A DNA stretch of 34,761 nucleotides from Lachnospiraceae bacterium (GTDB taxonomy: Bacteria > Bacillota > Clostridia > Lachnospirales > Lachnospiraceae): NCBI GenBank assembly GCA_017539565.1, contig JAFYCS010000043.1, positions 1-34,761 on the forward strand, written 5' to 3'. Shown here piece after piece: positions 2,876-17,281 of this stretch. The notes beneath the pieces are model-generated. The model worked only from the letters and a program-made list of their open reading frames with translations. It ran no database searches and was not told the origin of the DNA. The position numbers and the translations under genes are program-made. Positions within the stretch are counted from its first letter, which is position 1; each line of letters opens with the position of its first letter.

Positions 2876-3101
2876 TGTATTAAAAAAAGCCATAGAAAAA
2901 ACCCTTCAGGTATACAATACGGAGATAACCCCGGAGTCTACCTTTGAAACAGCGTTGGGAGCCGATTCCATAGACATGGCACAGATATTCAAGCTGGTGG
3001 AAGAAGAGCTGGGTATCACGATACCTGTCGCAGAGTGGGCGGGAGTCAGTACAGTACAGGATGCTTATGAGCTGATATGCAGGGTGAAGCAGAATGAATG
3101 A
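2865..3101 (+). CDS. acpP: Acyl carrier protein
   Basis: This small acidic protein (78 residues) carries fatty-acyl chains on a phosphopantetheine arm. The attachment site is the Ser of GADSIDM (Ser35), preceded by ITPESTF, which is typical of clostridial ACPs. GTG at 2859 and ATG at 2862 are alternative starts; ATG 2865 gives the usual MEYDVL-type N-terminus. There is no strong ribosome site, and the gene overlaps the end of plsX by 11 bases and rnc by 8, so translational coupling is likely. Helix 3 (PVAEWAGVSTVQDAYELI) differs from the housekeeping E. coli sequence, so a second or specialised ACP cannot be ruled out, but the plsX-acpP-rnc order argues for the main one. Confidence 0.9.
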   Translation: MEYDVLKKAIEKTLQVYNTEITPESTFETALGADSIDMAQIFKLVEEELGITIPVAEWAGVSTVQDAYELICRVKQNE

Positions 3102-3795
3102 TGAAGAAAGGGTAGCCGTTATCGAAAAACAGACCGGCTATGTATTTAAGGATAAATCCCTTTTGCTTACTGCGATAACACATTCGTCCTATGCCCATGA
3201 GCGTAAGATAAATAAGACGGGATGTAATGAACGTCTGGAGTTTCTGGGAGATGCGGTGCTGGAACTCATAAGCAGCAGATACCTGTTTGAAAAGTATAAA
3301 GATCTGCCGGAAGGCAGGCTTACGTATCTCAGGGCTTCACTGGTGAGTGAAAAGCCGCTGGCTGAATGTGCAAAGAGGATAGGCCTGGGGGAAGTGCTGC
3401 GGCTTGGCAAAGGCGAGGAGGCCGGAGGCGGCAGGACGAAAGCTTCCGTTACGTCGGATGCATACGAGGCTCTGATCGGTGCGATATATCTGGACGGAGG
3501 TTTTGAAGAGGCAAGCCGCTTTGTGGAACGTGAAGTGATGAGCTGCAGCGGGGAGCATCTTAAGGAAAAGGATCCCAAAACTACCCTGCAGGAACTTCTT
3601 CAGAAAAGGATGGAAGCGCATATCGAATATGAGCTGATAAGCGAGACCGGCCCCGATCATGACAAGTGCTATACCGTGGAAGTAAAGGTGAACGGTAAGG
3701 CCTGCGGCAGAGGCGAGGGCAGGAATAAAAAGAATGCTGAAAAAGCAGCGGCTGCAGAGGCCGTAGAATACTGGAAGAAAGAGATAGCAAAGTAA
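3094..3795 (+). CDS. rnc: Ribonuclease III
   Basis: Double-strand-specific endoribonuclease that processes rRNA precursors and structured mRNAs. The 233-residue protein has the N-terminal RNase III domain with signature NERLEFLGDAVLE (about residues 45-57) and DAYEALIGAIYLD (122-134). The metal-binding catalytic residues are E46, D53, D122 and E125, with the same spacing as E38/D45/D114/E117 of the E. coli enzyme. A C-terminal dsRNA-binding domain starts near DPKTTLQELLQ and ends in the basic KKNAEKAAAAEA helix. Length is normal and all key residues are present. It sits between acpP and smc, the standard Firmicutes order, and its stop codon shares one base with the smc start. Confidence 0.96.
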   Translation: MNDEERVAVIEKQTGYVFKDKSLLLTAITHSSYAHERKINKTGCNERLEFLGDAVLELISSRYLFEKYKDLPEGRLTYLRASLVSEKPLAECAKRIGLGEVLRLGKGEEAGGGRTKASVTSDAYEALIGAIYLDGGFEEASRFVEREVMSCSGEHLKEKDPKTTLQELLQKRMEAHIEYELISETGPDHDKCYTVEVKVNGKACGRGEGRNKKNAEKAAAAEAVEYWKKEIAK

Positions 3796-6700
3796 TGTAT
3801 TTAAAGAGTATAGAAGTTCAGGGCTTTAAGTCCTTTGCAAATAAGATAAGATTTGAGTTCCATAACGGTATCACAGGTATAGTAGGACCAAACGGATCAG
3901 GTAAATCCAATGTTGCGGACGCGGTACGCTGGGTTCTTGGAGAACAGCGTATCAAGCAGCTGCGTGGTGCATCCATGCAGGATGTTATCTTTTCCGGAAC
4001 CGAATTGCGTAAGCCTCTGGGGTATGCTTATGTTGCCATTACCCTGGATAATTCCGACAGACAGCTTTCGGTTGATTATGATGAAGTAACAGTTGCCAGA
4101 AAGATCTACCGCTCGGGTGAGAGTGAATATCTGATGAACGGCAATATATGCAGGCTTAAGGATGTTAACGAGCTGTTTTATGATACCGGTATAGGTAAGG
4201 AAGGCTATTCCATCATAGGACAGGGCCAGATTGACCGTATACTTTCGGGTAAACCCGAAGAGAGGCGTGAGCTTTTTGATGAGGCTGCAGGTATCGTTAA
4301 GTTTAAGAAACGTAAGGCTGCGGCTGTTAAGCAGCTTGAAGATGAGAAGCAGAACCTGACGCGTGTAAATGATATACTGGCTGAGCTGGAAAAGCAGGTG
4401 GGACCGCTGGAGAAGCAGTCGGAGAAGGCTCATGAATACCTGAAGAAAAAGGAAGAATTAAAGCGCCTGGATGTGAACCATTTCCTGCTGGACAGTGACA
4501 GAAAGGCGGAGGCATTAAAGGATACCAAAGAAAAACTGCGCATTGTTAATGATGACTTGTCCGGTCATCAGGCACAGTTGGAAAAGATCCGTGCTGAATA
4601 TGATACGATATCCGAGGATCTTACAGCTCTGGAACAGCAGCTGGATGAAGCCAGAGGAGAACTGAGTGAGGCGGGTACCGCACGCACCAGGCTGGAGTCA
4701 CAGATAGCTATCGCCAATGAGCAGATCAACTCCGCACAGAAAGGGACAGAGCATTTTACCAGACGCATAGAGGAACTTAATGCTTCCCTGGAAGAAAAAA
4801 AGAAAGAAAAGGAATCCATAGACAGCGATAAGTCCGGTGCTGATGATGTACTTAAGGAAGCGCAGGATAAGAGGGACAAGGAAAGAGCTGTCTTAAAAGA
4901 GATACAGGATAAGATCGAGGAGATCAACCAGGCTATAGAGGCAGATAAGAACGGCATCATTGAAATGCTCAACGAGCGCGCCAATGTGCGCAGTTCAAAA
5001 GAGCGTTATGATACTATGCTGGAGCAGAGCCAGGTAAGGCGTGCCGAGCTCAATTCCCGCTTCCTGCAGGCAAGGACCGATGAGGAAGAGCAGCAGAACA
5101 TAATCGAAAGCCTGCGAAAGGAATTTGAGGAGATCAACAAAAGGATCAAGGATATCGATTACGAGCGCGAAAAGAAAGAGGAACGCGCCGGTGAGATACA
5201 TGACGAACTGGGGGCTATGGATAAGCAGCTGCAGGAGACCCAGGTGGCATATCATCAGGATAAGACCAAGCTGGAATCCATTTCAAACCTGACAGAGCGT
5301 TATGAAGGCTACAGCGGATCCATACGGCATGTAATGGAAAAGAAGGCCGAGGATAAAGGTGTTATCGGCGTTGTGGCAGATATAATCCGCGTGGAAAAAC
5401 GTTATGAGACGGCTATAGAGACTGCGCTGGGCGGTAATATCCAGAACATCGTAACCCGTGATGAGGCCTGCGCAAAGCGCATGATAAAATACCTTAAGGA
5501 TAACCGCTTCGGACGTGCCACATTCCTGCCCCTTACATCCATAGAGCATCCCCAGAAGTTCAAGACACCCGAGGTGCTTAATGAAAGAGGCGTTATCGGT
5601 ATGGCGGATGAGATCGTTGATACCGATCCCGAATATATCAATGTAGCAAAGAGCATGCTGGGCCGTATAGTCGTTATCGATAATATGGATAACGCCCTGG
5701 CTATAGCACGTAAATATGACTATGGTATCAGGATGGTCACCATAGAAGGCGAACTGCTGGTACCCGGCGGTGCCATAAGCGGTGGTGCGTTTAAGAATAA
5801 TTCGAACCTTCTGGGACGCCGCCGTGAGATGGATGAGCTTGAGAAAAAGGTAAAAGATGCCCTGGCAAAGATAAACGGGTTCATGGACGGCATAGAGAAA
5901 CTCAAAGCGGAGCGTAACCGTTTAAGGGTTGAGATAGAGGATGCCAAGGTAAGAAGCCAGAAGGAGTTTATCAACTTAAATACCGCAAACCTCAACCTTC
6001 AGAAGGCACAGGAAAAGATAGATGCCACCACCAGGGGCGTGGACGACTTAAACCGCGAACAGGGTGAGATAGAACAGCAGGTAAAAGAGATCAAGGAGCG
6101 CCAGGTCGAGATCGCAGAGGCATTAAAGGGCTTCGCAGGTAACGAAAAGGAATTAAACGAACGGATCGAAGCTGCGCAGATAAAGCTTGATGCGGAAAGG
6201 GATAAAGAAACTGCCCAGGCTATGACCGTTACCGAATGTGAGGTCGAACTGGAGAAGCTGGTACAGAAGCAGCAGTTTGAAGCTCAGAATGTTGAGCGTA
6301 TCGATTCAGAGATTGCGCGTATAGAGAAGGAACTGGGTGAAGCAAGGGAGACCATCGCTGCCAATGCGGATACTGTCAGACAGAAGGAAGAAGATATAGC
6401 GCAGATAAAGCAGACCATAGAGGCAAGCTTTTCTGCCGAAGAAGATTCAAAGAATAAATTAAAAGCCCTTCAGAATAAGAAGGATGAACTGGGTGAGAAG
6501 CAGAAAGGTTTCTTCAGCCAGAGAGAAGAGCTTACGGATAAGATCGGCGGCCTGGATAAGGATGCATACCGTTTGAACAGCCAGCTGGATAAGCTGCATG
6601 ATGAGATGAACGGACTTACCGAATACATGTGGAATGAATATGAGCTGACGCTGGAAGATGCGGCTGCACTGAAGGATGAGGCACTGACCGATCTGGTATT

Positions 6701-7355
6701 CATAAAGAGGAGCATTGCAGAAGTTAAAGATGCCATCAAGCGTCTGGGCGATGTAAACGTAAATGCTATTGAAGATTACAAGGCTGTCATGGAAAGATAT
6801 ACCTTCCTTAAGGGGCAGCACGACGATCTGATAAATGCGGAGAAGGAACTGCAGGGTATCATCGAAGAACTGGATACCGCAATGAGAAAGCAGTTCGCCG
6901 ACAAGTTCGATGAGATAAAGAAAGAATTTGATAAGGTGTTCAAAGAGCTCTTCGGCGGCGGTAAAGGTACGCTGGAGCTCATGGAGGACGAGGATATACT
7001 CGAAGCAGGCATACGTATCATAGCGCAGCCACCCGGAAAGAAACTGCAGAACATGATGCAGCTCTCCGGTGGTGAAAAGGCACTGGCGGCCATCGCACTG
7101 CTCTTTGCGATACAGAACCTTAAGCCTTCGCCTTTCTGTCTGTTGGATGAGATAGAGGCTGCCCTTGATGAGAGTAACGTGGGACGTTACGCAAATTACC
7201 TGCACAAGCTGACAGCACATACACAGTTCATCGTCATCACCCACCGCCGCGGTACCATGGAGAAGGCCGACCGTCTCTACGGTATAACGATGCAGGAAAA
7301 GGGTGTATCGACACTGGTATCAGTCAACCTGATAGATGAAGAGCTGGATAATTAA
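3795..7355 (+). CDS. smc: Chromosome partition protein SMC
   Basis: SMC forms the ATP-driven DNA-loop-extruding ring that compacts and separates sister chromosomes with ScpA and ScpB. The 1186-residue protein has the N-terminal ATPase half with Walker A GPNGSGKSN (31-39), a long coiled coil, a hinge around residues 500-670 (IGVVADIIRVEKRYETA to VPGGAISGG), the returning coiled coil, and the C-terminal half with ABC signature LSGGEKAL (from 1090) and Walker B LLDEIEAALDE (1116 onward). All motifs and the length are normal. The start overlaps the rnc stop by one base (TAATG). It is followed 20 bases later by ftsY, a common partner in Firmicutes. Confidence 0.97.
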   Translation: MYLKSIEVQGFKSFANKIRFEFHNGITGIVGPNGSGKSNVADAVRWVLGEQRIKQLRGASMQDVIFSGTELRKPLGYAYVAITLDNSDRQLSVDYDEVTVARKIYRSGESEYLMNGNICRLKDVNELFYDTGIGKEGYSIIGQGQIDRILSGKPEERRELFDEAAGIVKFKKRKAAAVKQLEDEKQNLTRVNDILAELEKQVGPLEKQSEKAHEYLKKKEELKRLDVNHFLLDSDRKAEALKDTKEKLRIVNDDLSGHQAQLEKIRAEYDTISEDLTALEQQLDEARGELSEAGTARTRLESQIAIANEQINSAQKGTEHFTRRIEELNASLEEKKKEKESIDSDKSGADDVLKEAQDKRDKERAVLKEIQDKIEEINQAIEADKNGIIEMLNERANVRSSKERYDTMLEQSQVRRAELNSRFLQARTDEEEQQNIIESLRKEFEEINKRIKDIDYEREKKEERAGEIHDELGAMDKQLQETQVAYHQDKTKLESISNLTERYEGYSGSIRHVMEKKAEDKGVIGVVADIIRVEKRYETAIETALGGNIQNIVTRDEACAKRMIKYLKDNRFGRATFLPLTSIEHPQKFKTPEVLNERGVIGMADEIVDTDPEYINVAKSMLGRIVVIDNMDNALAIARKYDYGIRMVTIEGELLVPGGAISGGAFKNNSNLLGRRREMDELEKKVKDALAKINGFMDGIEKLKAERNRLRVEIEDAKVRSQKEFINLNTANLNLQKAQEKIDATTRGVDDLNREQGEIEQQVKEIKERQVEIAEALKGFAGNEKELNERIEAAQIKLDAERDKETAQAMTVTECEVELEKLVQKQQFEAQNVERIDSEIARIEKELGEARETIAANADTVRQKEEDIAQIKQTIEASFSAEEDSKNKLKALQNKKDELGEKQKGFFSQREELTDKIGGLDKDAYRLNSQLDKLHDEMNGLTEYMWNEYELTLEDAAALKDEALTDLVFIKRSIAEVKDAIKRLGDVNVNAIEDYKAVMERYTFLKGQHDDLINAEKELQGIIEELDTAMRKQFADKFDEIKKEFDKVFKELFGGGKGTLELMEDEDILEAGIRIIAQPPGKKLQNMMQLSGGEKALAAIALLFAIQNLKPSPFCLLDEIEAALDESNVGRYANYLHKLTAHTQFIVITHRRGTMEKADRLYGITMQEKGVSTLVSVNLIDEELDN

Positions 7356-7375
7356 ATAAAAAAGGAGAAAAGATT

Positions 7376-8872
7376 ATGGCCTGGTGGCCCTTTGGCAAGA
7401 AGAAAAAGGAAGAAGAGGAAGAGATAGTCGAGGATCAGAGCTTCCGCGTAAGCGATGATGATGCGGACTTCAGTCTTTTCAGACGTAATGATGAGCCTGC
7501 TGCTGAAACGCCGGTTTATCAGGAACCCGTGATACAGGCGCCCGTTGAGGAAACTGTTACAGCAACGGAAGAAGTTAATGCACAGGTTTTACAAATTGCG
7601 GTTCCGGAAGATACTTCGGCTGTAACACCGGAAGAAACTTCGTTAGATACACCGGATATAACTACGGCAGAAACTACTGTTGCAGCACCGGAAGAGAATG
7701 AGCCGGAAGAAGCTGAAGCAGAAGGATCAGAACCGGAAGAAACAGAAGCAGAAGAAGAGGACAAGCCTAAGAAAAAAGGCTTCTTCGGACTGTTCGGATC
7801 CAGGGATAAGACTGCAGATGAGGAAGAGGAAAAGGGTGAAGAGGACGGATCCGAAGCTGAACAAGCAGCAGAACCCGCAGAGGAAGAGGCAGAAGAAAAG
7901 CCCAAGAAGAAGGGCTTCTTTGCGCGCCTTAAGGAAGGTCTTGCAAAGACCAGGGATAACTTTGTTTACAGTCTGGACATCATCTTTGATGGTGCAGCCG
8001 CAATAGACGATGACTTTTATGAGGAACTGGAAGAGATCCTCATAATGGGTGATATAGGCGTACGCACTACGGAAGAAATACTGGATACTTTAAAAGAGCA
8101 GGTTGAGGACCAGCATATAGTGCGTCCTACCGAGTGTAAGGAACTGCTCATCAAGGATATCAGGGACCAGATGCATGTAGGCAATGCTGCTTATGATTTC
8201 GAAAAGCAGCAGTCGGTCGTGTTTGTCATAGGTGTTAACGGTGTCGGGAAGACCACATCTATCGGTAAGATCGCATCACACTTAAAGGCACAGGGCAAGC
8301 GCGTGATGATGGCAGCAGCCGATACCTTCCGCGCGGCTGCAGGAGACCAGCTTAAAGTATGGGCAGACCGTGCTGGTGTTGAACTCATCGGCGGACGGGA
8401 AGGAGCTGATCCTTCCAGCGTTCTCTATGATGCTACCGCAGCGGCCAAGGCAAGAGGTGTGGATGTACTGCTGGTGGATACCGCTGGACGTCTTAACAAT
8501 AAAAAGAACCTGATGGAAGAACTTAAGAAGATGAACCGTGTCATCGATAAGGAATTCCCCCAGGCACACAGGGAGAATCTGATAGTGCTGGATGCCACAA
8601 CCGGGCAGAATGCACTTCAGCAGGCAAGGGATTTCAACGATGTTGCGGATTTAAGCGGTATCATACTTACAAAGATGGACGGTACCGCAAAGGGAGGTAT
8701 CGCTGTAGCGATACAGTCTGAGCTTAAGGTGCCCGTTAAATATATCGGTGTAGGTGAACATATTGAGGATCTGCAAAAATTTGATGCAGATGCCTTTGTG
8801 GAAGCTCTCTTTGATGTAGAGCTTGAAAAAGATGAAGAAGATGAAAATGCGGAGGATGGAGAAGATGCCTGA
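7376..8872 (+). CDS. ftsY: Signal recognition particle receptor FtsY
   Basis: FtsY receives ribosome-SRP complexes at the membrane and hydrolyses GTP together with Ffh. The C-terminal NG domain (about 185-485) shows the P-loop GVNGVGKTT (286-294), DTFRAAA, DTAGR (368-372) and TKMDG (432-436). The first 180 residues form a very acidic, low-complexity A domain, longer than in Bacillus FtsY, which lacks a comparable extension as I recall. Within it the element KPKKKGFF occurs twice (about 130-137 and 175-182); the second copy leads into the RLKEGLAKTR helix known to touch membrane lipids. A good AAAGGAG site precedes the ATG. The expected ffh and ylxM neighbours are absent; ilvA follows. Confidence 0.96.
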   Translation: MAWWPFGKKKKEEEEEIVEDQSFRVSDDDADFSLFRRNDEPAAETPVYQEPVIQAPVEETVTATEEVNAQVLQIAVPEDTSAVTPEETSLDTPDITTAETTVAAPEENEPEEAEAEGSEPEETEAEEEDKPKKKGFFGLFGSRDKTADEEEEKGEEDGSEAEQAAEPAEEEAEEKPKKKGFFARLKEGLAKTRDNFVYSLDIIFDGAAAIDDDFYEELEEILIMGDIGVRTTEEILDTLKEQVEDQHIVRPTECKELLIKDIRDQMHVGNAAYDFEKQQSVVFVIGVNGVGKTTSIGKIASHLKAQGKRVMMAAADTFRAAAGDQLKVWADRAGVELIGGREGADPSSVLYDATAAAKARGVDVLLVDTAGRLNNKKNLMEELKKMNRVIDKEFPQAHRENLIVLDATTGQNALQQARDFNDVADLSGIILTKMDGTAKGGIAVAIQSELKVPVKYIGVGEHIEDLQKFDADAFVEALFDVELEKDEEDENAEDGEDA

Positions 8873-10085
8873 AATGCTGACACTTGACGCTTTTGAAGAA
8901 GCGGCCGAGACTGTAAAGGAGGTAACACTTGAGACAAAACTGATCTACAGTGATCATTTGAGTGCGCTTACCGGAAACAAGGTTTATTTAAAGCCTGAGA
9001 ATATGCAGTTCACCGGTGCTTATAAGGTAAGAGGTGCTTATTACAAATCAAGTACCTTAAGTGATGAAGAAAAGGCAAAGGGCGTCATTACCGCATCTGC
9101 CGGAAATCATGCGCAGGGCGTGGCTTATGCCGCACGCTGCAAGGGAATGAAGGCTACGATCGTTATGCCTACAACTACTCCCCTGATCAAGGTCAACCGT
9201 ACCAGAAGCTTTGGTGCAGACGTTGTGCTGTACGGGGATGTGTATGATGAGGCGTGCGAGAAAGCCTACGAGCTGGCAGCAGAGCACGGTTATACTTTTA
9301 TCCATCCCTTTGATGATCCGGCTGTGGCTACCGGTCAGGGAACCATAGCAATGGAGATAATAAAGGAACTGCCTCTTGTAGATGTGATACTGGTACCCAT
9401 CGGAGGCGGCGGTCTGGCTGCGGGAGTATCCACCCTGGCAAAACTCCTTAATCCAAAGATAAAAGTCATAGGTGTGGAGCCTGAAGGGGCTGCCTGCATG
9501 AAGGCTTCTTTAAAGGCAGGCAAGGTTGTTACCCTTCATACTGTAGATACCATAGCAGACGGTACCGCAGTCAAGACTCCCGGTACCAAGATATTCCCTT
9601 ATATCCAGGAGAATATCGATGATATCGTGACCGTTAAGGATGAAGATCTCATCGTATCTTTCCTGGACATGGTAGAGAATCATAAGATGATAGTTGAGAA
9701 TTCGGGCCTCCTCACCGTGGCTGCGCTTAAACAGCTGGATGCGAAGGGCAAGAAGATCGTTGCCATATTATCCGGCGGTAATATGGATGTCATAACAATG
9801 AGCTCTGTTGTGCAGCAGGGACTTATCTTCCGTAACCGTATATTTACCGTATCGGTGCTGCTTCCCGACAAGCCGGGCCAGCTGCAGGGTGTGGCAGGCG
9901 TGATCGCGAAGGAGAACGGCAACGTTATAAAGCTCGAACACAATCAGTTCGTTACTACAAACAGAAAGAGCGCCGTGGAACTGCGTATCACTATCGAAGC
10001 CTTCGGTACAGAGCATAAGGAAGCGATACTTAAGGCTCTTGAGACCGGCGGCTATAAACCTAAAGTAGTAAGAACACTTATATAA
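8865..10085 (+). CDS. ilvA: Threonine ammonia-lyase with one ACT domain
   Basis: A PLP enzyme converting threonine to 2-oxobutanoate and ammonia, feeding isoleucine synthesis or threonine breakdown. From ATG 8865 the product has 406 residues. The PLP lysine is K54 in FTGAYKVRGA; SAGNHAQGVA (78-87) and the phosphate loop GGGGLAAG (180-187) are intact. A single ACT domain occupies about 327-406 (FTVSVLLPDKPGQLQGV onward), which marks the medium form between TdcB-like and long IlvA enzymes. The frame opens at 8823 inside ftsY, but ATG 8865 has a GGAGG site nine bases upstream and gives the expected N-terminus; it overlaps ftsY by 8 bases. Whether it serves biosynthesis or catabolism cannot be told from sequence alone. 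Confidence 0.92.
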   Translation: MPEMLTLDAFEEAAETVKEVTLETKLIYSDHLSALTGNKVYLKPENMQFTGAYKVRGAYYKSSTLSDEEKAKGVITASAGNHAQGVAYAARCKGMKATIVMPTTTPLIKVNRTRSFGADVVLYGDVYDEACEKAYELAAEHGYTFIHPFDDPAVATGQGTIAMEIIKELPLVDVILVPIGGGGLAAGVSTLAKLLNPKIKVIGVEPEGAACMKASLKAGKVVTLHTVDTIADGTAVKTPGTKIFPYIQENIDDIVTVKDEDLIVSFLDMVENHKMIVENSGLLTVAALKQLDAKGKKIVAILSGGNMDVITMSSVVQQGLIFRNRIFTVSVLLPDKPGQLQGVAGVIAKENGNVIKLEHNQFVTTNRKSAVELRITIEAFGTEHKEAILKALETGGYKPKVVRTLI

Positions 10086-10136
10086 AAATGTGATCCCGAA
10101 CTCCGGTGAAGGATCTTTAAAAGGAGGATATAAACA

Positions 10137-11396
10137 ATGGCAGACATCAGACCTTTTGAGGCGATCAGACCCGCAAAGGGAATGGAAAGCAAGATCGCAG
10201 CATTGCCCTATGATGTATACAGCAGGGCAGAGGCAAAGGTAGTGGTAAGTAAAAATCCCGATTCATTCCTGGCTATCGACAGGGCTGAAACACAGTTTGA
10301 CGACAGCGTGGATACCTATGCGGATGAGGTATACGCAAAGGCGGCATCGATGCTTAAGGAACGCATCGAAAAGGGAGATTTCGTAAGAGAGGATAAGGCT
10401 GTTTATTATCTTTATGAACTGACAATGGACGGCCGTGTACAGACCGGTATCGTAGGCTGCGCCTCCATAGATGATTATGAGAACCAGGTTATAAAGAAGC
10501 ATGAGAATACCCGTGCGGATAAGGAAGCTGACCGTATCCGCCACGTTGATACCTGCAGCGCGCAGACGGGCCCCATCTTCCTGGCATACCGTCAGACCAC
10601 AGAGCTGCGTGAGCTTATGGGCAGGATCAAGAGCGGTGATGCCCTTTATGACTTCACCTCTGATGACGGCATAAGACACAGGGTATTCGTGATCGCAGAA
10701 GATGCTGATATCGCCATTGTTAAGAAGGCTTTTGAAAACATGAACGCGCTCTACATCGCGGACGGACATCACCGCTGTGCTTCAGCTGTACGTGTTGGCC
10801 AGCAGAGGCGTGCCGCAAATAAGAATCATACCGGCAATGAGGAATACAACTTCTTCCTTTCGGTCATCTTTCCTGATGAAGAGCTGATGATAATGGATTA
10901 CAACCGTGTGGTACATGATCTGAACGGTAACAGCAAGGATCAGTTCATGGCTGCACTTGAAAAGGTATTTACCGTAAGCGAAGCCGGAGCGGATGAATAT
11001 CATCCCACATCGAAGGGAGAGCTTGGCATGTATCTGGACGGCAAATGGTACAGGCTTAACATGCTGGACAGTGTAAAGAGCGATGATCCGGTAGACGGCC
11101 TGGATGTTGCAATACTGCAGGATAAGCTCTTATCCCCCGTGCTGGGTATCGCTGATCCCAAGACCGACAAGCGCATCGAGTTCGTAGGCGGTATCAGAGG
11201 GCTTGGTGAATTAAAGAGCAGGGTAGATGCTCTGCCTGAAATGGGCGTTGCATTCGCAATGTATCCGACTTCCATCGGTGAGCTTTTTGCCGTAGCTGAT
11301 GCCGGCAGGCTTATGCCTCCCAAGTCAACATGGTTTGAGCCTAAGCTGCGCAGCGGCATTTTTATTCACAGCATAGAGGAGGCATCCAATGAATAA
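10137..11396 (+). CDS. DUF1015 family protein
   Basis: A 419-residue protein of the DUF1015 family, which is widespread in Clostridia and has no settled function. Recognition rests on the N-terminus MADIRPFEAIRP, the AALPYDVYS segment, IKKHENTRADKEADR (about 119-133) and IADGHHRCASA (207-217). The DGHHR element resembles that of ParB/sulfiredoxin-fold proteins, some of which are nucleotide-dependent serine kinases (SerK, SbnI), so a small-molecule kinase or nucleotide-binding role is conceivable but unproven. A strong AAGGAGG site sits nine bases before the ATG. The 50-base gap after ilvA shows no clear terminator, so read-through is possible. It overlaps the next gene by 8 bases, indicating coupled expression. 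Confidence 0.87.
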   Translation: MADIRPFEAIRPAKGMESKIAALPYDVYSRAEAKVVVSKNPDSFLAIDRAETQFDDSVDTYADEVYAKAASMLKERIEKGDFVREDKAVYYLYELTMDGRVQTGIVGCASIDDYENQVIKKHENTRADKEADRIRHVDTCSAQTGPIFLAYRQTTELRELMGRIKSGDALYDFTSDDGIRHRVFVIAEDADIAIVKKAFENMNALYIADGHHRCASAVRVGQQRRAANKNHTGNEEYNFFLSVIFPDEELMIMDYNRVVHDLNGNSKDQFMAALEKVFTVSEAGADEYHPTSKGELGMYLDGKWYRLNMLDSVKSDDPVDGLDVAILQDKLLSPVLGIADPKTDKRIEFVGGIRGLGELKSRVDALPEMGVAFAMYPTSIGELFAVADAGRLMPPKSTWFEPKLRSGIFIHSIEEASNE

Positions 11397-13803
11397 GAAG
11401 CTCTACGATCTGATGGACTGGGCTGCTATAGAGGAGCTGGTTTACGGTGAATGTGACAGACCTGATGAGATACTTGGATCACACAACAGAGGACGTTCAT
11501 CACTGATACAGGCCTTCTTCCCCGGAGCAGAATCGGTGACGCTGTACATAAACGGCAGCGGAGCAAGAGGAAAGAGCGTTAAAGATGAAGTGAATATGGA
11601 AAAGGCGGATGACGCCGGTTTCTTTGCGGCACTCCTTTCCGGTAACGACAGAAAGGATTACCGTTACCATGTTGAATATGCAACAGAGGATGAAGGATCA
11701 AAAAAGAAAAAGAAATATGTAAAGACAGTCGATTGCGACGAGATCTACGGCAAGGGCAGAATGCTGACCGAAGCCGAAGAGACGCGTTTTGTGAGCGGAG
11801 CGGAGACCAGGGCATATACCTACATGGGAGCTCATAAAAAAAGCGTGGGTAATCTTCGCGGAGTGGTGTTCAGGCTGTGGGCTCCCGATGCGGTAAGAGT
11901 AAGCGTAGTGGGTAATTTCAATTCCTGGGATGCAATGATAAATCCCATGAACCGCCTGCAGGACTGCGGTATATTTGAACTATTCATTCCCGGCATCGAA
12001 GAAGGGGAAGAGTATGCTTATGATGTGCTTATGAAGGGCGGAGTAAGCGTACGTAAGGCGGATCCTTACAGCCTTATGCAGAAGGATTCCTATGATGCGG
12101 TAAGCATCGTGAGCGGGTATACGCATAAATGGAAAGATGAAAAGTGGATGGAGGGACGTAAGAAATTCGTACCCGCATCATCCTATGTGAACATATATAC
12201 GCTGCCGCTTCAGAATATGCCTGAAGGTTTCCTTAAGGATAAGAAGGCTGTAAGTGAGATGGCGGATTATATCGCAGGAATGGGATACAGCCATGTGGAG
12301 CTTCTGCCCATGATGGTATACCCCGGTGACGATGATGCGGGCTTCCACCCGGCACTGCTGTGTGCACCTGATACACGTACGGGAAGCACAGAGGAGCTTA
12401 TGGCATTTATAGACGCCATGCATGCAAAGAACGTAGGCGTTTTGCTTCAGTGGGCTCCCGGTGATTTCTCAAATGTAAGCTACGGACTGGGCAGCTTTGA
12501 CGGCAGTTCGATCTATGAGTATGCTGATCCCAGAAAAGGCGTGGAGCCCAGAACAGGTATGCTCAAATTTGATATGGGCAGGCCTCAGGTCAGGACCTAC
12601 CTTCTGTCTGCGCTCAACTGCTGGATAGAGAATTATCATATAGACGGTTTTAATACCCAGGATCTGGCATGCATGCTTTATCTTGATTATTACCGTAATC
12701 CCGGGGAGTGGATCCCCAATATGTACGGCGGGGTTGAAAATCTTGAGGCTATCAGCTTCTTTAAAGAGATGAATGCCATGCTGCATAAGGCAAAATCCGG
12801 ACTTATGAGTATCGCATCCGGTGCTGCCTGCTTCCCTAAGGTGACCGAAGTGTCGGATGAGGGACTGGGCTTTGACCTGGTAGCAGATGCGGACTGCATA
12901 AGGGAGCTGATCGATTATCTGAGCAGGGATCCGATAGTGCGCCGGTCATATCATCAGGCGCTTACAGGCAGCATGCTGTATCAATACTGTGAGCATTACC
13001 TGCTTCCCATAGGACTGTCGAACGTAAACTTCCGCCAGGGCGGCATAAGGATGCGTATGTACGGTGACAGCGCCCAGCAGTGGAAGGGACTTAAGCTGCT
13101 TTACGCATACCAGGCACTGCATACCGGTAAGAACAGCAGCTTCTGCGGACAGGAATACGGCGAGAATGCTTCCTTTGAGGATATGGACCGTGAGCTGCCC
13201 GATGCTAAGAAAGAATTAGAAGCTGAGGTGATGAGGGCTTATATCCGCAGCTTAAATCAGCTGTGCAGGACAGAGAGTGCGCTCTTTTCCGAAGATGCGG
13301 ATGATGATTTCGTATGGCTTAAGGAGCAGGCAGCTGAGGACAATGTACTCTGCTTTATCAGGCAGGATAAAAAGAAATCCTTTATCTGTGTTTTCAACTT
13401 CGCAAATATAGACAGGAATAAGTATTTTATCGGCGTTGACCGTGAAGGTAAATATAAAGAGATATTCTCTTCGGAGAACGGCGGACTCTGCGAAGGCTCC
13501 ACCGTTGCGGCACGCAAGGGAAAGACTGACGGATGGCAGTACAATATACGCCTGCAGCTCCCTGCGCTCAGCGTAAAGATATATCAGTACATACCTTTCA
13601 GTGCAGAGGAGAAGGCTGAGATAAAGCGCCGTGAAGAGGAGCGTGAAAGGAAGCGCCGCGAAGAGGAGGCAAAGAGACAGAAGCTTAAGGAAGAGCGTAT
13701 GAGACTGCGCCACTCTTTAAAGGATGAACTGGCAAAGAAAATAGCAGCTGCGGAGGCAGCCATTGCTTCGGGTTCTGAAAGCAAAGGTAAGAAGAAAAAG
13801 TGA
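11389..13803 (+). CDS. GlgB-like protein, apparently catalytically dead
   Basis: An 804-residue homologue of the glycogen branching enzyme. Domains in order: a GlgB-type N-terminal module (1 to about 120), a CBM48-like glycogen-binding module (about 155-235, FRLWAPDAVRVSVVGNFNSW), a GH13-type barrel (about 285-590, with strongly GlgB-like GEWIPNMYGGVENLEAI), a C-terminal beta domain, and a Lys/Glu/Arg-rich tail from about 737. Compared by eye with E. coli GlgB, the nucleophile Asp405 becomes Q424, its partner Arg403 becomes N422, the acid/base Glu458 becomes S477, and the Asp526 region (SHDEV) becomes GLSNV, giving S544. The region I DWVPGHF becomes QWAPGDF. The fold thus seems kept while the chemistry is lost, so a glucan-binding or regulatory role is more likely than branching. 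GAGGAGG precedes the ATG by six bases. Confidence 0.85.
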   Translation: MNKKLYDLMDWAAIEELVYGECDRPDEILGSHNRGRSSLIQAFFPGAESVTLYINGSGARGKSVKDEVNMEKADDAGFFAALLSGNDRKDYRYHVEYATEDEGSKKKKKYVKTVDCDEIYGKGRMLTEAEETRFVSGAETRAYTYMGAHKKSVGNLRGVVFRLWAPDAVRVSVVGNFNSWDAMINPMNRLQDCGIFELFIPGIEEGEEYAYDVLMKGGVSVRKADPYSLMQKDSYDAVSIVSGYTHKWKDEKWMEGRKKFVPASSYVNIYTLPLQNMPEGFLKDKKAVSEMADYIAGMGYSHVELLPMMVYPGDDDAGFHPALLCAPDTRTGSTEELMAFIDAMHAKNVGVLLQWAPGDFSNVSYGLGSFDGSSIYEYADPRKGVEPRTGMLKFDMGRPQVRTYLLSALNCWIENYHIDGFNTQDLACMLYLDYYRNPGEWIPNMYGGVENLEAISFFKEMNAMLHKAKSGLMSIASGAACFPKVTEVSDEGLGFDLVADADCIRELIDYLSRDPIVRRSYHQALTGSMLYQYCEHYLLPIGLSNVNFRQGGIRMRMYGDSAQQWKGLKLLYAYQALHTGKNSSFCGQEYGENASFEDMDRELPDAKKELEAEVMRAYIRSLNQLCRTESALFSEDADDDFVWLKEQAAEDNVLCFIRQDKKKSFICVFNFANIDRNKYFIGVDREGKYKEIFSSENGGLCEGSTVAARKGKTDGWQYNIRLQLPALSVKIYQYIPFSAEEKAEIKRREEERERKRREEEAKRQKLKEERMRLRHSLKDELAKKIAAAEAAIASGSESKGKKKK

Positions 13804-14783
13804 TAAAAGGCATCAGTGTATTTTTAACATCGGCATCGGAATCTGCGGTTTCGGATAATACTGCCCTAAGTTCTGCGCCGGCGGAGACTATACTTAAGGC
13901 TGCAGGTACCAGTGTGGAAGAGGTCAGTGAAAATCTTGACGCACTGCAGCAGTTCTTAAAAGACCTGCCGGGAAAGATAGTCATATTCGGCGTACGTATG
14001 ATCGTGGCTCTTTTGATGCTGTATGTGGGCAGTAAGCTGATAGGCCTGATACGCAAGATAGTAAAGAAGTCCATGGAGAAGGCCAAAGCGGATGTGGGGC
14101 TCAAACACTTCCTGGACTCCGTGTTAAAAGTAGGGCTGTATGCCCTGCTGGTGATATGGATAGCAGCGTACTTCGGATTTGAGACTACATCGCTGATAGC
14201 CGTGCTGGGCAGTGCCGGTGTGACCATCGCGCTGGCCCTGCAGGGAAGTCTGTCAAACGTTACCGGCGGTGTGCTCCTGCTTTTGCTCAAACCTTTCAAG
14301 ATAGGGGACTATATCATAGAGGACAGTAAAGGTAATGAGGGCTTTGTCACAGAGATAGGACTTTTCTATACGAAACTGCGGACTATCGATGAGAAGACAG
14401 TAGTTCTTCCCAACGGTACACTGGCCAATACGTCGCTTACAAATGTGAGCCAGACGCCAAAGCGCCGCCTGATCCTCAGCTTCGGTATATCCTACAAAGC
14501 AGATATAAAGAAGGCTAAGGAGATAATCAAAAAGCAGGTTGAAGACGATGAGCGCTTTATAAAGGGCGAAAAGGTCCAGATCTATGTGGACAGTCTGGAT
14601 GAGTCACAGGTTACCCTGGGACTGAGGGCCATCGTTAAAAACGAAGACTATTTTGAAGTGAAATGGGATATTACGGAAGCTGTAAAAGAAGCATTTGACA
14701 GGGAAGGCGTCAGCATTCCCTATCCCCAGCTGGATGTGCATATTGACGAAGCGGGGGCAAGCGGAGGAAATAAGCGCAAATGA
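13800..14783 (+). CDS. mscS: MscS-family small-conductance mechanosensitive channel
   Basis: A membrane channel that opens under lateral membrane tension to release solutes during osmotic downshock. The 327-residue product has membrane segments at about 60-84, 105-127 and 129-166; the third carries the MscS pore-helix pattern GSAGVTIALALQGSLSN. The beta domain then begins with PFKIGDYI, includes PNGTLANTSLTN, and is followed by an alpha-beta C-terminal domain. Length fits the family. The start is taken as GTG 13800, overlapping the stop of the GlgB-like gene; no ATG lies between there and the first membrane segment. The first 55 residues are a Ser/Ala/Glu-rich extension ahead of the channel core. 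The 4-base overlap with the next gene indicates an operon. Confidence 0.9.
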   Translation: MIKGISVFLTSASESAVSDNTALSSAPAETILKAAGTSVEEVSENLDALQQFLKDLPGKIVIFGVRMIVALLMLYVGSKLIGLIRKIVKKSMEKAKADVGLKHFLDSVLKVGLYALLVIWIAAYFGFETTSLIAVLGSAGVTIALALQGSLSNVTGGVLLLLLKPFKIGDYIIEDSKGNEGFVTEIGLFYTKLRTIDEKTVVLPNGTLANTSLTNVSQTPKRRLILSFGISYKADIKKAKEIIKKQVEDDERFIKGEKVQIYVDSLDESQVTLGLRAIVKNEDYFEVKWDITEAVKEAFDREGVSIPYPQLDVHIDEAGASGGNKRK

Positions 14784-16207
14784 AGAAAAAGAAAGGACTG
14801 ACAGCACTGTTGATCATACTTGCGTTGCTGATCCTTATCGGCGCGGGTGTGCTCTTCTTTGGCTTTATTAATGATCCGACTGCTATCGGGATAAGGCGTT
14901 ATATTGCGCAGAAGATGGTGGAAAAAGGCGATGACGATAAAGCCGAGACCCTTTATTACGACATATTGAGCCGTGATGAAACGGATGCTGACAGTTATCT
15001 GGCGCTTGGCGATATCTATATACGGGCAGAGGAATATGACGATGCTCATGAGATACTGGAGGAAGGCCTTCAGTATGCTCCGTGCCAGGACATTGCCGAC
15101 AAGCAGTGGTATGTATACGAACTTGAAGCTGATCTGGTGGCAGAAGCCGGTCCGGGTAAAGAGCTGCTGGCTTTCGTAAATGACATACCGGCGGAGGAAT
15201 TGAGAGAATACTTTGATGATCAGAGCGATGCAGACAAGTATGCCAAAGATGACGCAAAACGCTGGACAGATTCTGTCCTGGCACTTGCCAAAAGAAATAT
15301 GGACCACGGCGATGCTGCGGGGGCACAGACCATACTTGAAGACGCCATCGATCAGCCTATAAATGAATTTGCGGATATACAGGCTTTCAATGAAATGCTT
15401 ATCACCGTATATCTCAAACAGGGTAATGATGCTCTGGCGGCGAACGATAAAGATCACAATGCAAAGTATTTCTTTGACAAGGTACTGGCGCTGGATCCCG
15501 AAAATAAGGATGCACTGGATGGTCTGGCAAAGCTGAGCGCCATGGAGGATGAATCTAAAAAGTGGAAGACTGTCGATATCGCTGCTGTTGTAAAGTCAGA
15601 TCTTAAACTTAATATTCACGGTCTGCAGCTTTCGGCACCCGTGACGCTTACATGCAATGCCGTATATGACGGCAGGACAGAGGGAAGCGAGACCCTTAAG
15701 ATAGATGAAGATGTTACTCTCTCCGTACTGGGCCAGAAACAGCAGAAGTCAGCAAGTTTCAATATCTATCAGGACAGGAAAGATCTGGTGATCGAGAGTA
15801 AACTGACCGGGGCACAGAGGGAGAAGGATACCTCCTTAAAGGAGATGTTCTTTGGTTTTATCGATGACTATCACTCCCTGATCAGTGCTTCGCCTTATGA
15901 GGGGGAGCAGAACATAAAGGGCATTAAGTGCAATGTAAGCCATGCCACCATGAAGGGTAAGGATTATCTGTATTATATACCCAAGGATATGCTGCCTGAC
16001 GGAACAGAAGAACTGCTTAAATCAATTACGCTTGATGTTACCAGGTATACTGCAGTCGATGACGGCAGGGTTGTTAGAGTTGAAGCAGAGATGCTCACAG
16101 TAGATTCTGATGCGATAAACGAACTCATCAAGCCTTATCTGGGTGATACCAATACGGATGTTACCATGGAATCATTGACGGTGATCATGGATGTGGTCGC
16201 TAAATGA
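14780..16207 (+). CDS. Membrane-anchored TPR-containing protein
   Basis: A 475-residue protein of unrecognised function. A short basic start (MKKKKG) and a single hydrophobic span (about 7-29) suggest a signal-anchor with the bulk outside the cytoplasm. Residues about 45-250 contain TPR-like helical repeats (DADSYLALGDIYIRAEEYDDAHEILEEGL is the clearest, with a second near KYFFDKVLALDPENKDALDGLAKL). The C-terminal half (about 265-475) is beta-rich and resembles the extracytoplasmic LolA/LppX-like domains seen in Firmicutes lipoproteins (DUF6612-type), but this is only an impression. No lipobox is present. The ATG overlaps the mscS stop by 4 bases. Being envelope-located next to MscS, it might work with the channel; this is inference. 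Confidence 0.75.
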   Translation: MKKKKGLTALLIILALLILIGAGVLFFGFINDPTAIGIRRYIAQKMVEKGDDDKAETLYYDILSRDETDADSYLALGDIYIRAEEYDDAHEILEEGLQYAPCQDIADKQWYVYELEADLVAEAGPGKELLAFVNDIPAEELREYFDDQSDADKYAKDDAKRWTDSVLALAKRNMDHGDAAGAQTILEDAIDQPINEFADIQAFNEMLITVYLKQGNDALAANDKDHNAKYFFDKVLALDPENKDALDGLAKLSAMEDESKKWKTVDIAAVVKSDLKLNIHGLQLSAPVTLTCNAVYDGRTEGSETLKIDEDVTLSVLGQKQQKSASFNIYQDRKDLVIESKLTGAQREKDTSLKEMFFGFIDDYHSLISASPYEGEQNIKGIKCNVSHATMKGKDYLYYIPKDMLPDGTEELLKSITLDVTRYTAVDDGRVVRVEAEMLTVDSDAINELIKPYLGDTNTDVTMESLTVIMDVVAK

Positions 16208-16246
16208 TCCGTGTATTTTACAGATATTCAGAATGAAGGACATGAT

Positions 16247-17281
16247 ATGTTAAGTACTAAAGATTATTTTTATGAACTGCCGCCCGAGCTGATAGCACAG
16301 GATCCTCTTACGGACCGCAGCGCTTCCAGGCTGATGGTACTGGGACGTAACGACGGCAGTATTTCCCACAGACATTTTACCGATATAAAAGAATACTTAA
16401 AGCCCGGAGATCATCTGGTGCTTAATAATACCAGGGTCATCCCGGCAAGACTGTACGGGGAAAAAGAGGGTACCGGAGCAGGGATAGAAGTGCTCCTGCT
16501 CAAACGTCTGGAAGCAGACCGCTGGGAATGCCTGGTAAAACCGGGGAAAAAGGCCAGGGAAGGTGCGCGTATCATATTCGGCGGCGGACTTTTGAGTGCT
16601 GTTGTCGATGAGATAGTTGATGAGGGCAACCGTATCATACGCTTTGAATATGAGGGTATATTTGAAGAGATACTGGATAAGCTGGGAGAAATGCCCCTGC
16701 CGCCCTATATCACGCATAAGCTGCCCCGCGAGAACAGGGAGCGGTATCAGACCGTATATTCAAAGATAGAGGGTTCTGCGGCTGCGCCTACAGCCGGCCT
16801 GCACTTTACAGAAGCTCTTCTGGATGATATAAGGGAAATGGGAGTGAAGACGGACTTCGTCACGCTTCATGTGGGCCTGGGAACTTTCAGGCCGGTTAAG
16901 GTAGATAATATACTGGAGCATCACATGCACAGTGAATACTGCGAGATAAGCCGTGAGGTGGCAGATTCCATAAATGAATGCAGAAAAAGCGGCGGACGCA
17001 TTATATGTGTGGGGACGACATCGGTACGTACACTGGAAAGCATGAGTGAAGAGGACGGTACCGTAAAAGCCGGCAGCCGTGATACGGATATCTTCATATA
17101 TCCGGGATATAAGTTTAAGGCAGTGGACGGACTCATCACGAATTTCCATCTTCCGGAATCGACGCTTTTGATGCTGGTGTCTGCTTTTGCCGGCAGGGAT
17201 AATGTTCTTAAGGCTTATGAGGAGGCTATAAAGGAACGATACCGTTTCTTCAGTTTCGGCGATGCAATGCTCCTTATATGA
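16247..17281 (+). CDS. queA: tRNA ribosyltransferase-isomerase QueA
   Basis: QueA transfers and rearranges the ribosyl part of S-adenosylmethionine onto 7-aminomethyl-7-deazaguanine in tRNA, giving epoxyqueuosine at the wobble position of GUN anticodons. The 344-residue product shows [61 protein letters not shown] and [17 protein letters not shown] in the normal order, with full length. The frame opens with GTG 16211, but ATG 16247 has a GAAGGA site six bases before it and matches the family N-terminus. No other queuosine genes (tgt, queG, queF) are visible; tgt often follows queA, but here an independent degV transcription unit does. It is probably co-transcribed with the genes upstream. Confidence 0.96.

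Follow-up and report, generated by a model that had tools for sequence, protein, structure and literature searches.

In a Lachnospiraceae bacterium of the gut (assembly GCA_017539565.1), a tight run of genes includes a homologue of the branching enzyme GlgB in which every active-site motif is changed. This raises the question of whether the protein can still branch glucan and, if it cannot, what the gene is kept for. The window, meaning the whole stretch of DNA that was analysed, is the 34,761 nucleotide contig JAFYCS010000043.1. Its features around this gene are as follows, with residues numbered in the GlgB homologue.

10137..11396, + strand: DUF1015 protein, overlapping the start of the glgB homologue; a frequent upstream neighbour
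11389..13803, + strand: GlgB homologue without catalytic residues, 804 aa (ORF, domain search, alignment)
11389..11778, + strand: N-terminal domain, residues 1–130, with Pfam GlgB_N at 11–102; the signature MNKKLYxLMDWxxIExxxYxE is that of the lineage
11824..12072, + strand: CBM48 module, residues 146–228 (domain search)
12448..12468, + strand: region I, QWAPGDF replacing DWVPAHF, residues 354–360
12652..12663, + strand: nucleophile region, N-T-Q-D replacing R-V-D-A, residues 422–425
12814..12825, + strand: acid/base region, ASGA replacing AEES, residues 476–479
13012..13026, + strand: transition-state region, GLSNV replacing SHDEV, residues 542–546
13315..13587, + strand: Alpha-amylase_C all-beta domain, residues 643–733 (domain search)
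13597..13800, + strand: C-terminal tail rich in Lys/Glu, residues 737–804
13714..13743, + strand: C-terminal motif SLKDELAKKI, of a type also seen in some intact relatives
13800..14783, + strand: MscS-type mechanosensitive channel, its GTG start overlapping the glgB stop; a frequent downstream neighbour
14780..16207, + strand: TPR protein, next in the overlapping gene run

Loss of the active site

The window protein has the Pfam GlgB_N, CBM48 and Alpha-amylase_C domains around its barrel, which is the architecture of GlgB and the domain composition of GH13_9. PF00128 was not reported for it in the Pfam search at E 0.001; the same model was found in canonical GlgB, in the intact relatives L018 and L005 and in the dead L066 and L047, and marginally in the dead L033, where intact and dead are defined by residues. 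With TIGR01515 the window protein scores 472.4 bits and passes the cut-off of 463.95, and it falls below the cut-offs of both the PRK05402 and PRK12313 GlgB models.

The earlier note on this DNA had described the ORF, its frame and four altered motifs (QWAPGDF at 354–360, NTQ at 422–424, ASGA at 476–479 and GLSNV at 542–546), all of which stand as written, and had proposed an alignment to GlgB structures. Solved GlgB chains align with the window protein over nearly its full length, the best being 3k1d (E 6e-118), which we take to be M. tuberculosis GlgB. The altered motifs fall opposite the catalytic regions of these chains. Eight GH13 active-site positions, chosen from what we understand of E. 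coli GlgB, were checked and all eight are replaced (Y to F319, D to Q354, H to D359, R to N422, the nucleophile D to Q424, the acid/base E to S477, H to L543 and the transition-state D to S544). The catalytic Asp, Glu and Asp of GH13_9 are among the residues lost. All eight positions are kept in the canonical GlgB of the host and in 59/59 intact locus-linked relatives.

Catalytic residues have been lost with the frame and, judged from sequence, the fold kept by selection, which is the pattern of a pseudoenzyme. It is almost certain that the window protein no longer branches glucan and that its gene is alive. The case that the earlier note had named against its own reading, Asp425 serving as a shifted nucleophile, does not apply to the window protein because the acid/base residue and the transition-state Asp are also gone.

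The DUF1015-glgB-mscS locus

Window positions 3094–17281 hold a tight same-strand run of rnc, smc, ftsY, a threonine ammonia-lyase gene, DUF1015, the glgB homologue, mscS, the TPR gene and queA, with several overlaps. At two loci, L051 and L052, queA follows mscS instead of the TPR gene. The DUF1015-glgB-mscS locus is found in many genera of Lachnospiraceae, its GlgB being intact in many relatives and dead in others.

Neighbours were counted for 133 GlgB rows (82 intact, 51 dead), which include one gene twice (L033 and L139), three short canonical controls and about 20 other intact GlgBs without either neighbour, and for which some flanks are too short to tell. The mscS gene lies directly downstream in 97/133 rows (56/82 intact and 41/51 dead) and is non-adjacent in 10/51 dead rows; DUF1015 is upstream in 26/82 intact and 42/51 dead rows. 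The glgB frame and the mscS open frame lie a median of 4 nt apart, and 88/97 are at most 60 nt apart; the true gaps are somewhat larger than these distances, which are measured to the open frame and not to the start codon. Neither mscS nor DUF1015 was found beside canonical GlgB within 1.5 kb flanks at any of 48 loci. In 15 order-mates from other families GlgB is intact and neither neighbour is present.

Retention and selection in the genus

A long GlgB homologue is present in 33 of the 35 genomes from the genus of the host, and the two genomes without it are 67% and 81% complete. No internal stop is found in any of the 33 copies. The nucleophile Asp is absent from all of them. The carriers include XPB1003, AB2028, NK4A179 and NC2008, records that are not marked as MAGs, and the gene is therefore not a metagenome artefact. 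Chance and a sequencing, assembly or frameshift error were considered and rejected on the strength of the open frames in 33/35 genomes, the non-MAG carriers and the low dN/dS.

Purifying selection is seen in the dN/dS of 0.03–0.10 across 13 close dead pairs (residues 1–733), where several dS values are near saturation and the same range is obtained from the seven pairs whose dS is below 1. The dead protein also changes at a median of 4.1 times the rate of canonical GlgB in -ln identity (29 genomes, range 3.2–6.7), and some of this change therefore reflects relaxed constraint. Across the genus 85 columns are invariant, and the N-terminal domain, 130 residues long, accounts for 21 of these. All eight active-site positions vary within the genus. 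The 33 members all lack the transition-state Asp, and 14 of them still carry Glu at 477.

Recurrent loss of catalysis

In a family sample of 150 genomes, nearly one per genus, a GlgB match was found in at least 144; long copies that score worse than about E 1e-109 may be missing from it, which makes the share of dead copies a rough figure. The comparison set has 59 intact locus-linked copies and 17 dead copies outside the genus, of which 15 are linked (L110 and L124 are not) and one, L024, is doubtful. The lost residues differ between lineages. In Butyrivibrio AE3009, MC2021 and NC2002 the locus GlgB is dead too. The Butyrivibrio records L251, L257, L273 and L279 are of another residue type, with S or A at the nucleophile, K at the acid/base position and the transition-state Asp changed to E. 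Six g150 genomes, which may belong to the same genus as the host, are dead with the same kind of residue pattern, as is L377, and none of these are in the trees.

On an rpoB tree of 73 genomes (80 were requested; five had no match and two gave fragments only), nucleophile loss requires 12 changes, nine of them forced by well-supported (starred) branches, and bootstraps give 11–13. On a glgB tree built without the catalytic columns from 56 rows (21 dead, 35 intact), which were picked from the 133 after a first tree was seen, the intact and dead states require 10 changes, eight of them forced by starred branches. Constraining this tree to a single dead clade costs 308 log-likelihood units (p-AU 4.96e-06). 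The FastTree phylogeny of all 133 rows requires just five changes, all forced, with most dead rows grouped: a group with support 43 holds 47 of the 50 dead rows and one intact row, and a starred branch within it holds 40 dead rows and one intact. The count of changes therefore depends on the tree, at 5 (FastTree), 10 (56-row glgB) or 12–15 (rpoB analyses).

Three rows are classed differently between counts. L024, in which the only change is transition-state Asp to Glu, is dead in the FastTree, 56-row glgB, earlier rpoB and comparison counts and intact in the 73-genome rpoB count. L094 keeps the nucleophile and has lost the other two residues; it counts as dead in the first rpoB count, which gives 13 changes, and as intact when the nucleophile alone is scored, which gives 12. 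L123 has the three catalytic residues and a changed His543, and was treated as intact in the tree counts and left out of the intact comparison set.

A single origin of the dead copies is rejected by the AU test on the 56 glgB rows and by the rpoB tree, although the FastTree grouping runs against this rejection. We read that grouping as long-branch attraction, to which this method is susceptible and the fast-evolving dead rows would be exposed; this is a reading rather than proof. A count of changes cannot tell direction, and we read the changes as losses of catalysis, not gains, since it is implausible that a full catalytic set was regained. The alternative that is left, differential loss after an old duplication, is unlikely because the locus is common to both and dead rows pair with intact neighbours in both trees, for example L066 with L018.

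Redundancy of branching enzymes

The second, intact glgB that the earlier note had suggested looking for is present in the host genome, where the canonical copy (G000:C37) has intact motifs. A third, more distant GlgB-like gene (G000:C85) also has intact catalytic positions. The host carries glgC and glgA, and adjoining glgC is a second glgC-like gene, scoring below the glgC cut-off, which we take to be glgD. With these genes the species should make glycogen.

Each of the 17 dead genomes from outside the genus holds a further GlgB whose triad is intact, a count that includes the genome with the doubtful L024 and two genomes in which the other GlgB is on contigs giving just part of the gene. 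Within the genus, another intact-triad GlgB is present in 30/30 of the carriers checked; of the remaining three, two have partial canonical genes and one, which is 72% complete, has none. It thus seems that catalysis is given up in genomes that still have another GlgB. The intact mscS-linked copy is the sole GlgB match in 7 of the 56 genomes that carry one.

Shifted constraint and the C-terminal tail

In the dead genus constraint has shifted away from the barrel and towards the N-terminal domain. Among pairs at 50–60% overall identity, mean identity in the dead genus is 0.59 for the N-terminal domain and 0.53 for the barrel (152 pairs), whereas in the intact copies it is 0.35 and 0.67 (673 pairs); these means are descriptive, as pairs share branches. 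At 38–50% identity the dead-genus values are 0.55 and 0.43 (316 pairs), a bin that holds no intact pairs. At 60–90% the two domains are about equal in the dead genus, while in the intact copies the barrel is still well ahead. Within the dead genus the N-terminal domain is thus at least as conserved as the barrel. The CBM48 module and the C-domain show no shift between dead and intact copies at 50–60% identity.

Columns invariant in the intact copies have been lost by the dead genus at 36/71 positions in the active-site segments, which were chosen after the losses were seen, and at 12/86 in the rest of the barrel. The corresponding losses are 3/33 in CBM48, 0/9 in the N-terminal domain and 0/11 in the C-domain.

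A motif LKxEL..K after a charged linker is retained in 25/32 tails of the genus, where shuffling gives an expectation of 0.26, and occurs in 9/50 and 16/47 tails of two intact sets, where shuffling gives 0.10 and 0.23; the pattern was chosen after the tails were seen and the two intact sets share some genes. Outside the genus just 1/12 dead tails has the motif, so the tail cannot be the sole reason for retention. In some intact relatives, such as L105, L246, L267 and L275, a C-terminal LKxEL..K peptide, often ending in EEK, stands behind a Lys-rich linker and resembles a docking motif.

An Asp or Glu is present at residue 425 (window 12661–12663) in 33/33 members of the genus, in 9/17 other dead copies and in 0/59 intact copies. 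This acid one residue past the lost nucleophile is a convergent change. A new conserved catalytic site was considered and rejected: the dead copies have no replacement triad in common, and the acid at 425 is the sole recurrent gain that was followed.

Proposed function and alternatives

The seemingly repeated killing of the copy at the same locus, with the protein kept, probably reflects a job other than catalysis. On balance we favour a pseudoenzyme descended from the GlgB of the DUF1015-glgB-mscS locus, which would have lost branching and been kept for a non-catalytic glucan- or partner-binding job. The lost residues imply that the window protein would be unable to branch glucan. Selection would then keep a function residing mainly in the N-terminal domain, the CBM48 module and the C-terminal tail. 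The earlier note had proposed selection for a non-catalytic role, and this is strongly supported by the dN/dS of the 13 dead pairs, the kept N-terminal domain, the C-terminal motif kept in the genus and the intact glgB elsewhere in the genome. This function most likely goes back to the intact locus-linked ancestor, given that catalysis was lost independently in lineages that have another intact GlgB, while the rest of the protein was kept.

In molecular terms, the CBM48 module and N-terminal domain may hold alpha-glucan, and the N-terminal domain, joined in this genus by the tail motif, may dock partner proteins, for which glycogen enzymes or MscS are the inferred candidates. Glucan binding through the barrel is doubtful because groove residues have been lost, and the predicted binding then rests on CBM48. 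Acting in this way, the protein would serve glycogen metabolism as a tether or a regulatory subunit, much as PTST or ISA2 do in plants.

The gene order invites another explanation, in which the protein is an ancillary subunit of the adjacent MscS, a GlgB-derived body at the cytoplasmic side of the channel that could, for example, couple osmotic release to the glycogen state. The frequent and close downstream position of mscS (97/133 rows, median 4 nt to the open frame), the overlap in the window and the lack of either neighbour at the 48 canonical loci favour it, and the GH13-like transporter subunits rBAT and 4F2hc (PMC8537225) are a precedent. This is an unlikely reading, however, as adjacency alone is no proof of physical contact, the run also holds unrelated genes (smc, ftsY and queA are nearby), and dead copies without an adjacent mscS are found in the QMCEHN group, in 3/4 Butyrivibrio loci and in 6/6 g150 loci. 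It is similarly improbable that the locus-linked GlgB is in general a primarily structural or regulatory, glucan-holding subunit tied to MscS, with catalysis a dispensable remnant. Were MscS association true, it would explain the repeated loss of the active site, the frequent acid after the nucleophile and the retention of the protein, and would provide a bacterial counterpart of the GH13-like transporter subunits.

New or residual enzyme activity through residues that have shifted position, for example Asp425 taking over from Asp424, would account for the acid at 425 in the genus and in other dead copies and for its absence from intact ones, and would fit the Glu477 that remains in 14 members. 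It is nevertheless highly improbable when the window protein has Ser at 477 and 544 and lacks the Arg that partners the nucleophile, all 33 members are without the transition-state Asp and no active-site position is uniform across the genus. A redundant copy in decay, without function, would be expected to evolve fast, as the dead copies do at a median 4.1 times canonical GlgB, and to have an intact GlgB beside it, as in all the dead genomes checked, 17 of them from other genera and 30 from this one. The low dN/dS contradicts decay, as do the 33 copies without an internal stop and the 85 invariant columns, with 21 in the N-terminal domain, and there is very little chance that it is correct.

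Related systems and significance

The window protein shares with GlgB (GH13_9; 3k1d and the 5gqu group) the order of N-terminal domain, CBM48, barrel and C-domain and can be aligned over nearly the whole length; it differs in lacking the nucleophile, acid/base residue and transition-state Asp, in its charged tail and in its mscS/DUF1015 locus. The 5gqu group is Cyanothece GlgB (PMC6243121). Plant ISA2, as described in PMC12510319, is a non-catalytic paralogue of an alpha-glucan enzyme that is conserved beside an active paralogue and binds ISA1. The dead copy beside an intact one in the host genome is similar, but ISA2 is of the debranching family with ISA1 as its partner, whereas any partner of the window protein is putative and the losses look recurrent. 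Plant PTST and FLO6 are CBM48 proteins that are not catalytic themselves and guide an enzyme to glucan; PTST has coiled coils (PMC6243121). They are described there without a GlgB-type barrel, and their partners are established, whereas the window protein has CBM48 together with a barrel read from its sequence, and its partners are putative. The heavy subunits rBAT and 4F2hc of amino-acid transporters have an alpha-amylase-family fold serving a membrane transport protein (PMC8537225); they are animal, extracellular and membrane-anchored, whereas the window protein is bacterial and linked to mscS by gene adjacency only.

No paper describing such a protein was found among the titles and abstracts listed for open-licence papers on glgB with mscS, branching enzyme with pseudoenzyme, and branching enzyme with Lachnospiraceae or Butyrivibrio. 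Nor was a report found among them of the conserved linkage that joins the gene of a glycogen-related protein to that of a mechanosensitive channel. Repeated independent loss of an active site under strong retention is a natural experiment in which the catalytic function is separated from the non-catalytic one. Annotation of glycogen enzymes in bacteria relies on similarity, and because the dead protein passes the curated TIGR01515 cut-off, a dead branching enzyme may be attributed to genomes from gut and rumen as if it worked.

A separate observation concerns the canonical glgB at locus L133, which is adjoined by a 1236-aa ORF (5938–9648, minus strand) with many acidic repeats of the EGEYYEEGEY type.
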